A stretch of 64,000 bases of DNA from assembly GCF_030499515.1 (NCBI RefSeq), contig NZ_JASTWJ010000001.1, positions 7,544,001 through 7,608,000 of the forward strand, written 5' to 3'. Shown piece after piece: positions 10,398 to 49,268 of the stretch. The position numbers and the translations under genes were made by a program. Source of the stretch: Streptomyces sp. DT2A-34. GTDB lineage: Bacteria > Actinomycetota > Actinomycetes > Streptomycetales > Streptomycetaceae. How positions within the stretch are numbered: position 1 is the first letter of the stretch; every line of letters starts with the position of its first letter. The notes below the pieces were generated by a model. It did not search any database. It was not told the DNA's origin and was given only the letters and a program-made list of their open reading frames with translations.

Positions 10398-10838
10398 ATG
10401 GCGGAACACACCAGCTCGAGCATCACGATCGAGGCGGCACCGGCCGACGTCATGGGGGTGATCGCCGACTTCTCCCGCTACCCGGACTGGACCGGCGAGG
10501 TGAAGGAGGCGGAGGTCCTCAAGACCGACGGCCAGGGCCGTGCCGAGCAGGTTCGCCTCGTCATGGACGCCGGCGCGATCAAGGACGACCAGGTGCTGGC
10601 GTACACCTGGAGCGGTGAGCACGAGGTGTCCTGGACGCTGGTGAAGTCCCAGATGCTGCGGTCGCTCGACGGGTCGTACATCTTGAAGTCGGCGGGGGCC
10701 GGGGCGACCGAGGTCACGTACCGGCTGACGGTGGATGTCAAGATCCCGATGCTGGGGATGATCAAGCGCAAGGCCGAGAAGGTCATCATCGACCGGGCGT
10801 TGGCGGGGCTGAAGAAGCGGGTGGAGTCGGGCAAGTAG
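10398..10838 (+). CDS. SRPBCC (START-like) family protein
   Basis: A 146-residue single-domain protein opening [20 protein letters not shown] with [10 protein letters not shown] soon after, the standard start of the polyketide-cyclase/START-like fold that forms a hydrophobic pocket for lipids or other ligands. The ATG at 10398 has GGAGGAG about 9 bases upstream. A TAGCCT -10-like box lies at 10331. By order it is the Rv2185c counterpart. The ligand is unknown. The conserved pairing with the ArsA-like ATPase two positions on suggests a shared, perhaps membrane-lipid, role; that is inference. Confidence 0.82.
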
Positions 10839-10870
10839 GTCGTCGCCCCCGCCGCCCCTACCCGTCCCAT

Positions 10871-10978
10871 CCCCAGGGGCGCTGCCCCTTCGACCCCGCC
10901 CTCCTGGGGGCCTGCGGCCCCCAGACCCTCGCTTCGGCCCTGAACGGGCCTCGTCCTCAAACGCAGGACGGGCTGGGT
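10871..10978 (+). terminator. Multi-hairpin intergenic element acting as terminator
   Basis: Three perfect stem-loops follow each other: CTGGGGGCC-TGC-GGCCCCCAG (10904-10924), GGCCC-TGAAC-GGGCC (10936-10950) and CGTCCT-N7-AGGACG (10952-10970), after a shorter GGGGC/GCCCC pair. The right half (CTGAACGGGCCTCGTCCTC onward) resembles a repeat often seen after Streptomyces genes. It probably terminates the SRPBCC transcript. Confidence 0.6.
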
Positions 10979-11029
10979 GGGGCGGACGGTACTTGTCGGT
11001 GGCCGTCGATCACCCGGCCCACGCACCCG

Positions 11030-11641
11030 GCCGCTCAGCCATGTCGCCCGGCTGCGGGAGCTGCACTGGGCAGTGCTGCCCGGCCGCTCCCGGCGGTAGT
11101 AGCCGCACCTGGCTGTGGTGCCCGGCCGAGCCGCCCAGCCGCGATAGCCGCACTTGGCTGTGGTGCTCGGCGGTGGCGTCAGGCCGCGGCAGCGTGCGCC
11201 TGGCTGCTCGGCGGTGGCGTCAGGCCGCGGCAGTATGTACTTGGCTGTGGTGCTCGGCGGTGGCGTCAGGCCGCGGCAGCATGCGCCTGGCCGTGGTGCC
11301 CGGCCGAGCCGCCCAGCCGCGGTAGCCGCCCGCCGCCGTGAGGTCCAGCCATGTCGCCCAGCCGCGGTAGGCGCCCGCCGCCGTTTCGGGTTGGTCTTCG
11401 GGAAGTTGTCGTTCATCGCCTCGGCAACCTCGTTGGTCGCCTTGGTCCAGATCGCGATGAGCTCCTGCGTGCGCTCGTCCTTGGTGATCAGACCGGCGTC
11501 CAGTCATGTCGTCAAGCCGCGGTAGCCGCACCCGGCCGTGGCACTCAGCCGAGCCGCCCAGCCACAGCGGCAGCCGCACGTGGCCGTGGCGCCCAGCCAT
11601 ACCACCCAGCCGCGGGCAATCGTGCCGCCCAGGGCGGCACG
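11030..11641. repeat. Degenerate GC-rich tandem array, no gene
   Basis: About 600 bases are built from variants of two short units. One 28-mer beginning GCTCGGCGGTGGCGTC occurs three times exactly (11165, 11206, 11252). A second unit, CCGGCCGAGCCGCCCAGCCG, occurs at 11122-11141 and 11300-11319, with decayed relatives near 11355, 11515 and 11545. The reading frames that cross it have low-complexity products. A 9-bp hairpin (11621-11641) closes the array. The fragment of rpoC at 11387 lies inside it. There is no cas gene, and the gaps between the exact copies (13 and 18 bases) are too short for CRISPR spacers. Confidence 0.75.
11387..11500 (-). pseudogene. rpoC: 114-nt fragment of rpoC (RNA polymerase beta' subunit)
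   Basis: Read on the minus strand, 38 codons encode [20 protein letters not shown] and continue to [11 protein letters not shown]. This is the segment of actinobacterial beta' just before the MMxxSGARGN region; E. coli beta' has the parallel stretch AGLVTAGERYNKVIDIW. Similarity stops abruptly on both sides (after TNP the next codons belong to the array; before DAG the array resumes). Third positions are 36/38 G or C and no codon is broken, so decay is not visible. No start or ribosome site is present and the piece cannot make a functional subunit. Confidence 0.72.
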
Positions 11642-11758
11642 GGTGGGCGCGGGCGGCACCCCGTCAGCGCCGGGATGCGCGACCCACCCCCGGCCCAGCC
11701 TCCACGCCGCGCACCTGCCGATCGGGCTGAACGCTGGCGTCCGTTACCGTTCACCCCC

Positions 11759-12937
11759 ATGCGCACGATCCTGATCACGGGCCCTGGCGGCAGCGGCCGT
11801 ACCACCGTCGCCGCCGCCACCGCGCTGGCGGCGGCGAACCACGGCACCCGCACCCTCGTCCTGAGCGCCGACCGCACCGACACCCTCGGTGCCGCACTCG
11901 GCGTGACCACCGGCGCGACCCCCGCCCGGGTCACCGACACCCTCACCGCATGGCGCCCCGACGCCGCCACCGGCTTCCGGGACGACCTCGCCGCCTTCCA
12001 GGAACGTGCCGCCGCGGCCCTCGACCTCCTAGGCGCCTCCCGGCTCGACCCGGACGAAGTCACCCCCCTCCCCGGTGCCGAGGAGCTCGCGCTGCTCCGT
12101 GCCCTGCGGGACGCCGCCCTCGCCGAGGCCCACGACCTCCTGGTGGTCGACCTCCCGGCCACCCCGCACGCCCTCGCCCTGCTCTCGCTTCCCGAGGAAC
12201 TGCGCCGCTACCTGCGTCGGCTGCTCCCGTCCGAGCGGCAGGCGGCCAGGGCCCTGCGGCCCGTGCTGGGGCGGCTGGCCGGTGTTCCGATGCCGGCGGA
12301 GTGGCTGTACGAGACCGCGGCCCGCTGGGACGTCGAGCTCGCCGCCGTCGAGGCCGTGGTCGCCGACCGCGACACCGTCGTACGGCTGGTCGCCGAGCCC
12401 GGTCCGGGCGGTGCCGACGCGGTGCGGGCTGCCACCCTCGCCCTCGCCCTGCGGGGCCTGCGCCCCGACCTGCTGGTCGCCAACCGGGTCCTGCCGGAGG
12501 CGGAGGCGCCGGCGGACAGCTGGCTCGCCGGCCCCGTCGCCCAGCAGCGCAAGGTTCTGGAGGAGTGGGGGGAGGAGGACCACGACGTCCACCACATCGC
12601 GCATCTCGGGCGCGACCCGCGTGGCGTCGACGACCTCGCCGCGCTCGCCGTGCCCGCCGTCAACGACACCTCGTCCACGGTCGAGTGGCCCGTCACCGAC
12701 CGCCTCGCCGAGGACGGCGTCCTCGTCTGGGCCGTCCCGCTGCCCGGCGCCGTACGCGACGAGCTCGACCTCGTCCGGCGCGGCGACGAAGTCGTCGTCA
12801 CCGCGGGACAGTTCCGGCGTATCGTGCCCCTGCCGTCCGCCCTGCGCCGGTGCGGTGTGGACGGGGCCGCGCTGCGCGACGGCGAGCTGCGGATCCGGTT
12901 CGCGCCGGATCCGGAACTCTGGCCGCGGACCCGGTGA
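11759..12937 (+). CDS. ArsA/anion-transporting-ATPase-like protein with altered P-loop
   Basis: A 392-residue protein. Its N-terminal ITGPGGSGRTTVAAATALAA sits where ArsA/MinD-type ATPases have the deviant Walker A KGGxGKT, but both lysines are replaced (Pro and Arg). The downstream DLLVVDLPATPHALALL corresponds to the DTAPTGHTLRLL switch of ArsA. Nucleotide binding may therefore be weak or different. The ATG at 11759 follows TACCGT by about 12 bases, with no Shine-Dalgarno, so it may be leaderless; the long upstream frame runs through the repeat array and is not coding. By order it is the Rv2184c counterpart. The function is unknown. Confidence 0.8.
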   Translation: MRTILITGPGGSGRTTVAAATALAAANHGTRTLVLSADRTDTLGAALGVTTGATPARVTDTLTAWRPDAATGFRDDLAAFQERAAAALDLLGASRLDPDEVTPLPGAEELALLRALRDAALAEAHDLLVVDLPATPHALALLSLPEELRRYLRRLLPSERQAARALRPVLGRLAGVPMPAEWLYETAARWDVELAAVEAVVADRDTVVRLVAEPGPGGADAVRAATLALALRGLRPDLLVANRVLPEAEAPADSWLAGPVAQQRKVLEEWGEEDHDVHHIAHLGRDPRGVDDLAALAVPAVNDTSSTVEWPVTDRLAEDGVLVWAVPLPGAVRDELDLVRRGDEVVVTAGQFRRIVPLPSALRRCGVDGAALRDGELRIRFAPDPELWPRTR

Positions 12938-46053: not shown

Positions 46054-46250
46054 GTGTATTGGCGCCGGTCTGAAACAGGTCCATCTACGTATTGCTGCCT
46101 CGCTCCGGTCTGAGGCAGGGCCCTACGGCGTATCGCCGCCGGCTCGATGCAGGGCCCTACGTGTATCGCCGCCGGCCGATGCAAGGCCCACCGCGTATTG
46201 CTGTCGGCCCGAAGCGCCCCCCGACGTATCGCCGTCGGCCTCAGCCGACC
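46033..46250. repeat. Degenerate tandem array of about 33-bp units
   Basis: Six to seven units begin at 46033, 46067, 46107, 46141, 46174, 46206 and 46237. Each reads GGTCTGAGGCAGGGCCCTAC with variations, then GTATCGCCGCC or GTATTGCTGCC. The period is 31-40 bases. No gene is present. Confidence 0.7.
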
Positions 46251-46479
46251 ACCTCGGCCGAGCCGACCTCAGGCGGCCGCCCAGATCGGAGCAGACCCCT
46301 CGTCCTCGGCTCGTGCGGGTCTCTGGCCGGAGATCTGCCCGCTACGGCTTGTGCCCGACGCAGGTTCCGCCCGTTCCGCGTCCCGCCCGAGGCCGCCCAC
46401 CGCGGTCGCTCCGGGCCAATGCCCTCAGCTCCGCTGAGCGAGCTGTCCCAACTCTGCTGGGGCGGTCCCCGCGGCACCC

Positions 46480-46880
46480 GTCACGGTGAGATCCGGGCGC
46501 GAGTGGGGCTGGGCCGGAGTGGGTCCTCGGCCCCGGTGGGGCGTGGGCAGGAGAGGGCCCTTGGCCCCGGTGGGGCGTGGGCAGGAGAGGGTCCTCGGCC
46601 CGAATAAGGCGCGGCCGGAGTGAGGCCCGGGCACGAGCATGGCCCGGGCACGAGCGAGGCCCGGCCTGAAGCAAGCCCCGCCCCGGCCAGAAGCACGCGC
46701 CCCCGCACCGGCGTCCCCAACCACCCCTCCGGCACGCACCCCGCCCCGGCCCCAAGCACCCACCCGGCCCCAGCCGAAGCACGCAGCACCCCACCGCCCC
46801 AGCCGAAGCACGCAGCACCCTGCCCCAGCGGAAGCCCCCACCCCACCGCAGGCCCGCCCGCACCCCACGCCCCCCCCAGC
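46480..46880. repeat. Low-complexity GC-rich repeats, no gene
   Basis: Two copies of a 34-base unit, CCCCGGTGGGGCGTGGGCAG at 46531 and 46565, are followed by repeated CCCGGGCACGAGC and AGCCGAAGCACGCAGCACCC words. The plus strand switches from G-rich to C-rich near 46680. Long frames here code only for Pro/Arg/Gly repeats and are not genes. The array runs up to the stop of the transglutaminase gene; 46250-46480 is also gene-free. Confidence 0.65.
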
Positions 46881-46886
46881 GGCTGA

Positions 46887-49268
46887 TTACCCCCGCTGCG
46901 CAGGCGTCGACGGCTTGCGCAGTGTCGGTCGGGCGGCGGCTGCGTGGCGCTTGGTGTCGGTCCACCAGTCCGACACGGCCCAGGCCACCCGCACGCTGGA
47001 GCGTGGGGCCAGGACGGCGCGCATGTGTGTCGTCCAGCGGGCCTTGGACTCGAGGTCGGACCGGACGCGACGGACATCCTCTGCGAGGCCGGCCGTCGGG
47101 CGAGGGACGGGGGCGTAGAGGACCTGTTCCACCGCGTCGGCCACCCGGTGAACCGAGGCTGCGGCCGGTGGGTCGAGGTGACCCAGGCGGACGATGCGGG
47201 CCGCGGTCTTGCGGGGCGTCTGGGAGTCGTCCGGCGGGATGCCGAAGTCCCAGGCGAGGTCGGTGAGTTCCTGCCAGACCGCCAAGGTGTGACGCGATAC
47301 GTCCGCCTCCGTGCGGCCATGTGCTCCCAGCCGTGCCGCCCGTGTCCGAAATCGCCACAGCATCGGCGCCAACGGGATCAGCAGCGCTGCCAGCCCGACG
47401 GGCGCCCACGCCAGAACGACGTACCACCTCAAGCCGTCGTCGCCCGGGGCGAGCGCGGCCTCGGGGGACTCGCTCGCGCACAGCTCCGGGTTCCGCCCGG
47501 CGCAGCTCTCGCTCGTCGAGGGCGAGGCGGACGGCCCCGTGCTTGTCGACTGCGTGGGACGCGTCACGTCCGGGAGAGTGGAGCCGGGCGAGTCCGACTG
47601 GGTGTACGACGGAACCGAACCACGGGTCGGGGTCGGCTCGAAGCGGGTCCACCCCACGCCCTCGAAGTACAGCTCGGGCCAGGCGTGCGCGTCCTTCAGC
47701 CCCACCGAGACCGTGCTGTCGCCCTGCGGGGTGCCGGGCGCGAAGCCCACGGCGACCCGGGCGGGTATGTCGAGCGAGCGGGCCATGGCCGCCATCGCGA
47801 AGGAGAAGTGGACGCAGAAGCCCTGCTTGTCGCGCAGGAACCGGGCGATCGCCTGTCGATCTTCGCCGGCCTTGACGTTGGTGTCGTACTGGAACCCGCC
47901 TGTGACGGCGAAATACTCCTGCAGCTTGACCGCCTGCTCGTAGTGGCTGGTCGCGCCCTCGGTGACCTCACGCGCGGTTCGGGCGACCACCGCGGGCAGC
48001 GAGTCGGGCAGCTCGGTGAACTCGCGCCTCAGTGCCGCCGGCGGCTCCGGCGCGTTTGCGAGCTGCTTCGCCGTCGGCTGCACATCAAGGCTGCGCACGG
48101 TGTACGTCACCCCGCGTGTGGTCTGGCGGCGATCACCGACGACCGTCATCCCCAGCGGTTCGTACCGCCACCTGCCCGCGATGCTCACTCCGCTGGGCGG
48201 ATAGGGCATCGGCAGCCAGTTCTGGGCGTACCAGTCGGCGGCCGAGATGGTCGTCTCGACCTCGGCACGCCGGATGTCGGGGCCGAGGCCGATGGGCGTG
48301 GGGAACTCGTCCGGCACGGCCTGGATGCCGCGCTTGGCCGGCTCCCAGGTCTTGCCGTCGAAGTCGTCCAGGGACACGATCCGCAGGTACAGGCTCGAGG
48401 TGTCTTCGGTGCTGCTCCTCAGGGAGAGGACCTGGCGGTCCTCGTCCACGTTCAGACTGTTGCGCAGCGACACCACTGGATTCACCGCGGAGATCGTGCC
48501 CCCTCTCCCGCTGCCTGAGCCGACTGTGCTCGCGGGGTCCAGCAAGCCGCCGTTCATCGCGGGCAGGGCCAGCGGTACGACCAGGGCGATGCCCAGGGCG
48601 ACCATGCCGATGCGTCGCCCGGTGCGGACCGGCGCCACCACGCCGCTGGGCTCCCCACCCGGCGTCCGTGGCGCCCCGCCGAAGACCCGGCCCCACTGCG
48701 AGAGCCGGTCGCGGCCCTCGGCCAGGAGCAGCATCAGATAACCCGCGGCGGCGACCAGGAACCACAGCCAGTCCGCGCCGCCGTCGGCCAGTCCCGCGGC
48801 CACGGAGTACAGCGCCAGCAGGGGCAGCCCGGCCGGGGCCGCGCTGCGGAACGTCACCGCGAGGGTGTCCACCGCCAGGCCGATGATCAGGACTCCGCCG
48901 ATGAGCATCAGCCGGATGCCGTCGGACAGCGGTGCCGGGATCGAGTACCGGCTCACGTCGTCCGCGCCGGCCTGCAACAGGTCGGCGAAGTGACGGAAGG
49001 CCTCCGGACCGGGGATCACTCCGATGATCGCCTGCTGGTTGGCGAAGGTCAGGGTCAGCAGCATCAGCGCGACGAGGGCCTGCGCGGCCACCGTCAGGGG
49101 CCGTGCCAGCGGCACCCTCCGGGTCACCATGCCGACGCCGGTCTGGATCGCCAGCAGGAAGATCGCCTGAATCAGCCAGGTGACCGGAGAGACCAGCGGC
49201 AGCAGGGCGCAGGACGCCAGCAGTGTGGCCGCCGCGGCGCACAGCGCCATCCGTGTCCGCCCGCTCAT
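46887..49268 (-). CDS. TgpA-type transglutaminase-like membrane protein
   Basis: A 793-residue protein: about six N-terminal helices (DUF3488/TgpA_N), an external transglutaminase-core domain with the catalytic Cys in KQGFCVHFSFAMAAMARSLD, the His in KDAHAWPELY and the Asp-like position in GWTRFEPTP, a Ser/Thr/Pro linker, one more helix (WYVVLAWAPVGLAALLIPLA) and a cytosolic tail. The ATG at 49268 overlaps the DUF58 stop by 4 bases. With MoxR and DUF58 it forms a conserved three-gene unit, probably involved in envelope protein processing; the substrate is unknown. Confidence 0.87.
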   Translation of the reverse strand: MSGRTRMALCAAAATLLASCALLPLVSPVTWLIQAIFLLAIQTGVGMVTRRVPLARPLTVAAQALVALMLLTLTFANQQAIIGVIPGPEAFRHFADLLQAGADDVSRYSIPAPLSDGIRLMLIGGVLIIGLAVDTLAVTFRSAAPAGLPLLALYSVAAGLADGGADWLWFLVAAAGYLMLLLAEGRDRLSQWGRVFGGAPRTPGGEPSGVVAPVRTGRRIGMVALGIALVVPLALPAMNGGLLDPASTVGSGSGRGGTISAVNPVVSLRNSLNVDEDRQVLSLRSSTEDTSSLYLRIVSLDDFDGKTWEPAKRGIQAVPDEFPTPIGLGPDIRRAEVETTISAADWYAQNWLPMPYPPSGVSIAGRWRYEPLGMTVVGDRRQTTRGVTYTVRSLDVQPTAKQLANAPEPPAALRREFTELPDSLPAVVARTAREVTEGATSHYEQAVKLQEYFAVTGGFQYDTNVKAGEDRQAIARFLRDKQGFCVHFSFAMAAMARSLDIPARVAVGFAPGTPQGDSTVSVGLKDAHAWPELYFEGVGWTRFEPTPTRGSVPSYTQSDSPGSTLPDVTRPTQSTSTGPSASPSTSESCAGRNPELCASESPEAALAPGDDGLRWYVVLAWAPVGLAALLIPLAPMLWRFRTRAARLGAHGRTEADVSRHTLAVWQELTDLAWDFGIPPDDSQTPRKTAARIVRLGHLDPPAAASVHRVADAVEQVLYAPVPRPTAGLAEDVRRVRSDLESKARWTTHMRAVLAPRSSVRVAWAVSDWWTDTKRHAAAARPTLRKPSTPAQRG

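Follow-up and report, generated by a model that had tools for sequence, protein, structure and literature searches.

Non-homologous end joining in Streptomyces can leave captured DNA at the site of repair. In S. ambofaciens, the scars that Hoff et al. (2018, PMC5869714) describe at breaks induced with I-SceI include endogenous pieces of 30, 42 and 83 bp; the 42 and 83 bp pieces came from near the break, the 30 bp piece originated far away, in a transposase gene of the terminal repeats, and five insertion events are reported in all, ranging from 30 bp to 18.8 kb. Nucleotide addition is given there for 40% of scars, either a single untemplated nucleotide at blunt ends or the filling-in of 1–4 nt, and microhomology of 1–6 nt for 50%, and the induced breaks mostly led to deletions of flanking sequence. 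Foreign DNA might, those authors speculate, be incorporated in the same way. Templated sequence insertion polymorphisms, as described in PMC5110952, differ from the case presented here in their host, which is human, and in that one class of them is LINE-mediated. A literature search on partial duplication of rpoC found no paper.

Here we describe a short piece of rpoC lodged in an intergenic repeat array of Streptomyces sp. DT2A-34, which we regard, by analogy with the scars above, as a natural case of a kind already known from laboratory Streptomyces. It resembles the S. ambofaciens scars in having a short, apparently endogenous insert, what looks like a single untemplated base, little or no microhomology, and genes for Ku and LigD-type proteins in the host. 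It departs from those described by Hoff et al. in three respects: it is a natural, inherited event and not the product of an induced break; there is no visible loss at the site, whereas their flanks were mostly deleted; and the presumed donor, a core gene, lies at a distance of 3.6 Mb, whereas two of their three short inserts derived from near the break. An initial annotation of this DNA held that nothing explains how the fragment arrived, which was too strong a statement given that the S. ambofaciens study records an event of the same kind (PMC5869714).

The inserted segment and its setting

The window, by which we mean the whole stretch of 64,000 nt that was analysed, contains a 920 nt spacer between a polyketide cyclase-type gene and an ArsA-type ATPase gene, and this spacer holds a degenerate tandem array interrupted by the insert (Table 1). 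The GC-rich stretch that follows the left gene may resemble a dispersed Streptomyces intergenic repeat. The palindrome-bearing segment that precedes the ATPase gene is probably part of the ancestral spacer, and is possibly a terminator.

Table 1. Window coordinates of the array, the insert and the neighbouring features
Feature	Position	Strand	Basis
Polyketide cyclase/dehydrase-type (SRPBCC) gene, left neighbour	10398–10838	+	Pfam PF10604, E 1e-16; marks the left side of the locus in relatives
GC-rich stretch past the left gene	10839–10990		Matched in part by some relatives at this locus (e.g. L043, L046, L054)
Degenerate tandem array, units of ~41–48 nt, interrupted by the insert	11105–11611		TRF rows 11105–11304 and 11519–11611; unit parse
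Intact sister unit of 45 nt, taken to represent the empty site	11317–11361		Unit parse
Interrupted unit, left half	11362–11384		22/23 nt identical to sister unit
Extra T at left junction	11385		Absent from sister unit and from rpoC
Captured rpoC piece, 110 nt (sense strand given)	11386–11495	-	109/110 identical to own rpoC
Sole difference from own rpoC, A versus G	11426		A also in 2/36 distinct rpoC sequences of relatives
Interrupted unit, right half; last G of insert perhaps shared	11496–11516		16/21 nt identical to sister unit
Conserved palindrome-bearing segment before ATPase gene	11607–11660		Matched wholly or in part at 9/80 relative loci (L042–L121)
ArsA-type anion-transporting ATPase gene, right neighbour	11759–12937	+	Pfam PF02374, E 7e-33; PF17886, E 2e-19

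Aligned with the rpoC of its own genome (G000:C1:3928954–3929063), the insert returned E = 3e-54 with the 10-kb rpoC locus as target and E = 4.7e-50 in a search of the whole genome, values that exclude a chance likeness. The single mismatch is synonymous in rpoC (GTC to GTT). The source gene has a reading frame of 1301 residues, counted from the stop that precedes its start, and carries RNA polymerase Rpb1 domains 1–5; the insert covers about residues 760–796 of that frame, where domain 4 begins. The insert begins and ends arbitrarily within rpoC, the sequences flanking insert and gene are unrelated, and the insert has no evident function. The initial annotation had placed a 114 nt piece of rpoC at 11387–11500 on the minus strand within the array, and had proposed the alignment with the strain's own rpoC, which both provided the match and mapped the edges. 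The presence of the piece, its strand and its setting stand, and its length and limits are revised: the earlier range took in five array bases on the right, which is why the leading residues D and A of its translation are not those of rpoC, and fell one base short on the left.

The orientation of the insert is such that a transcript crossing the spacer in the direction of the ATPase gene would be antisense to rpoC mRNA, with 109 of 110 positions complementary, and might regulate rpoC. Such a selected element seems to us highly improbable, however, given ends that lie arbitrarily inside rpoC and an occurrence in just one of the 392 same-genus genomes sampled.

Anatomy of the junctions and mode of origin

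The interrupted unit (11362–11516) measures 155 nt and its sister 45 nt, giving a net gain of 110 nt. Once the insert is subtracted, one unit length of 45 nt remains, and no target duplication is visible; compared with the sister unit, no loss of array is visible either. The left joint carries the extra T and shows no microhomology; at the right joint 0–1 nt are shared, the candidate being the last G of the insert. The T may possibly be an untemplated addition. The empty site is modelled on a sister unit, and the units are degenerate, so that these placements are good to 1–2 nt only. Two observations of the initial annotation are borne out by the comparison: array sequence does abut the insert on both sides, with the matches to the sister unit listed in Table 1, and neither insertion-sequence marks nor a target duplication are visible, inverted ends having been judged by eye.

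Transposition shares with this locus the appearance of an extra segment in an intergenic region. An insertion sequence or MITE was nonetheless rejected as the source, since the insert is a slice of rpoC that lacks both a target duplication and a dispersed family, its matches in its own genome being rpoC and itself only among the 13 candidates scored. A CRISPR spacer, which would lie between near-identical direct repeats, was likewise rejected on the structure of the array: the insert splits a degenerate unit near its centre, and successive units adjoin directly with no spacers between them.

We think it likely that the insert is a recent and single scar of Ku/LigD end joining, which captured a stray fragment derived from rpoC. 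We infer a double-strand break, which would have fallen inside one 45 nt unit of the intergenic array, and a loose 110 nt duplex derived from rpoC, with Ku/LigD as the agent that would have ligated this duplex between the broken ends by non-homologous end joining; the joining would have left one untemplated T on the left and 0–1 shared base on the right, with no array sequence visibly lost. This repair reading is supported by the anatomy of the locus and by precedent. Three features that characterize scars of the type reported by Hoff et al. are present, in that the insert matches elsewhere in the same genome (109/110) between unrelated flanks, the joints show one added T and 0–1 nt shared when set against the sister unit, and the host encodes Ku and LigD-type proteins: its genome gave one match to Ku (PF02735) and three matches over the cut-off to the LigD polymerase (TIGR02778), one of them adjoining Ku. 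The initial annotation had offered capture of a genome fragment by repair or by a hidden mobile process; anatomy and precedent favour the former, and the latter finds no support in the searches made, which showed neither a duplication nor a family of copies.

The main mechanistic rival is template switching during replication. Repeat arrays can stall replication forks, and a fork stalled in this GC-rich array might have copied 110 nt of rpoC and then returned, with no loose fragment required. The sharp edges of the insert would suit such an event, as would the one G that is perhaps shared at the right edge, but the left edge combines an extra T with a lack of microhomology and the template would have lain 3.6 Mb distant. 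When the insert is removed, moreover, the array folds no better than its shuffled versions (z = -0.98, 60 shuffles), which counts against a switch at this point and led us to reject structure as a cause of the break. We consider template switching quite unlikely, while acknowledging that with 0–1 nt of homology the two mechanisms cannot be strictly separated.

A chimera of assembly or library preparation would be another possible source of the insert, and misassembly is plausible within a repeat array. We rate this as very improbable: the 10.17 Mb contig is one of 2 that make up the assembly, the insert is one base off the strain's own rpoC, and both edges lie within one unit whose two halves match the sister unit.

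Read as an end-joining scar, the locus would supply a clean natural example of the repair by-product documented in Streptomyces at induced breaks. Genes as highly conserved as rpoC make such scars easy to spot, and hence a search across many genomes could measure the rate of end-joining capture in bacteria. It could also tell own from foreign donor DNA.

Donor and age of the insert

The donor was most simply the cell's own rpoC. End joining might instead have captured a piece of rpoC from another Streptomyces, acquired by conjugation or from the DNA of dead cells, and position 11426 is the sole marker available for this question. We had at first taken the mismatch to be private to the insert, because the first 7 of 7 relatives carried G; this was overturned when A was found in two of 36 distinct rpoC sequences from relatives, one of them a full match. 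(The 36 remained from 43 loci after 7 duplicates were dropped, and were drawn from best-match lists, so that the fraction is not a population frequency.) The full match, 110/110 as against 109/110 for the strain's own gene, belongs to genome G236 and is the only one seen in another species; over a longer stretch, the rpoC of G236 and that of the present strain are identical at 1232 of 1310 positions. A foreign donor would account for both observations, but conservation of this segment is such that the rpoC of many species is one base away from the insert, and a single later change in the insert, or an A in the ancestral rpoC of the strain itself, fits equally well. All three histories are possible on the data for 11426, and we regard a foreign donor as unlikely. 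Were the donor foreign, the locus would be a natural scar with DNA of a relative stitched into a break, of the sort on which Hoff et al. speculated (PMC5869714).

The insertion looks young when its sequence is set against the divergence of the neighbouring gene. S. regalis is the closest relative among the matches listed, with 94% protein identity in the ATPase, and the two ATPase genes differ at 49 of 276 fourfold sites. The insert has acquired at most one change in 110 nt, and so is probably much younger than the split from S. regalis. Since A occurs in two of the 36 relatives' sequences, the mismatch may predate the insertion, and it sets an upper bound on age only.

Distribution among relatives and in the rest of the genome

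Orthologues of the ATPase gene served to compare the locus across relatives, in 80 loci (L042–L121) taken from titled genome records. Both neighbouring genes were found in 78 of these, separated by spacers of 23–371 nt as against 920 nt here. No match to the insert was present in the 80 loci, among which the contig stops before the spacer is complete in L049 and L070. Array sequence was matched in nine, and there the matches were confined to the last 38–56 nt toward the ATPase gene, that is, to the palindrome-bearing segment.

A sample of 392 genomes of the same genus was taken from a larger group, and two candidates were scored per genome. A 710 nt rpoC query matched 389 of them, 388 once and the present genome twice, leaving three with none; the tally for the 110 nt insert as query was identical. 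No second copy of the rpoC segment was thus detected in the 391 other genomes by a procedure that recovered the known insert with both queries but, at two candidates, could overlook any copy beyond the second and any piece of much smaller size. Within its own genome, the full 110 nt matched rpoC and the insert only (13 candidates scored). A looser search of 61 genomes returned, besides rpoC, a 36 nt match of 89% to part of the insert (G022:C61:59694–59729, E 7.4e-5), which could be due to chance or a shorter piece. The same search gave weak second matches to array sequence in two genomes (G014 and G047).

The left part of the array was found in this strain only among the 392 genomes, apart from a 45 nt match of 87% in G130 (two candidates scored per genome). 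Elsewhere in its own genome it matched nothing at E 1e-6 but its own right part (2 of 211 candidates scored). The window has a second degenerate, GC-rich tandem-repeat region at 46115–46877, with several periods (17–68 nt), for which the interval 46080–46900 served as query. It had been suggested that other arrays of the genome be searched for gene pieces; this one, compared with the whole genome, matched itself alone (40 of 173 candidates scored). Candidates were scored in part in both array searches, and short pieces may therefore be missed.

A self-comparison was made on 2.4 Mb of the 10.3 Mb genome, after an earlier pass on 1.6 Mb, retaining pairs of 32–600 nt with an identity of 93% or more, no more than two partners and both flanks below 60%. 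A capture is visible only if the sample includes its donor as well as its scar, so that ~5% of possible pairs were covered. The filter passed 115 rows, many of which looked by eye like copies of tRNA or rRNA, local repeats or motifs of paralogous genes. Only one pair, that of the insert and rpoC, combined a length of 45 nt or more and a distance above 3 kb with one side called coding and the other non-coding. The initial annotation had supposed that the array captures fragments repeatedly; the array searches, this self-comparison and the 391 other genomes yield no further case.

In eight more pairs within the same limits of length (45 nt or more) and distance (above 3 kb), both members were assigned to non-coding sequence by the crude map used, which called only 62–77% of bases coding; some of these could be captures. 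Finally, the regions G000:C1 4501993–4508595 (L226) and 5835778–5842562 (L203) have in common short near-identical stretches (71 and 46 nt) that are similarly spaced in both, suggesting a pair of related integrated elements.
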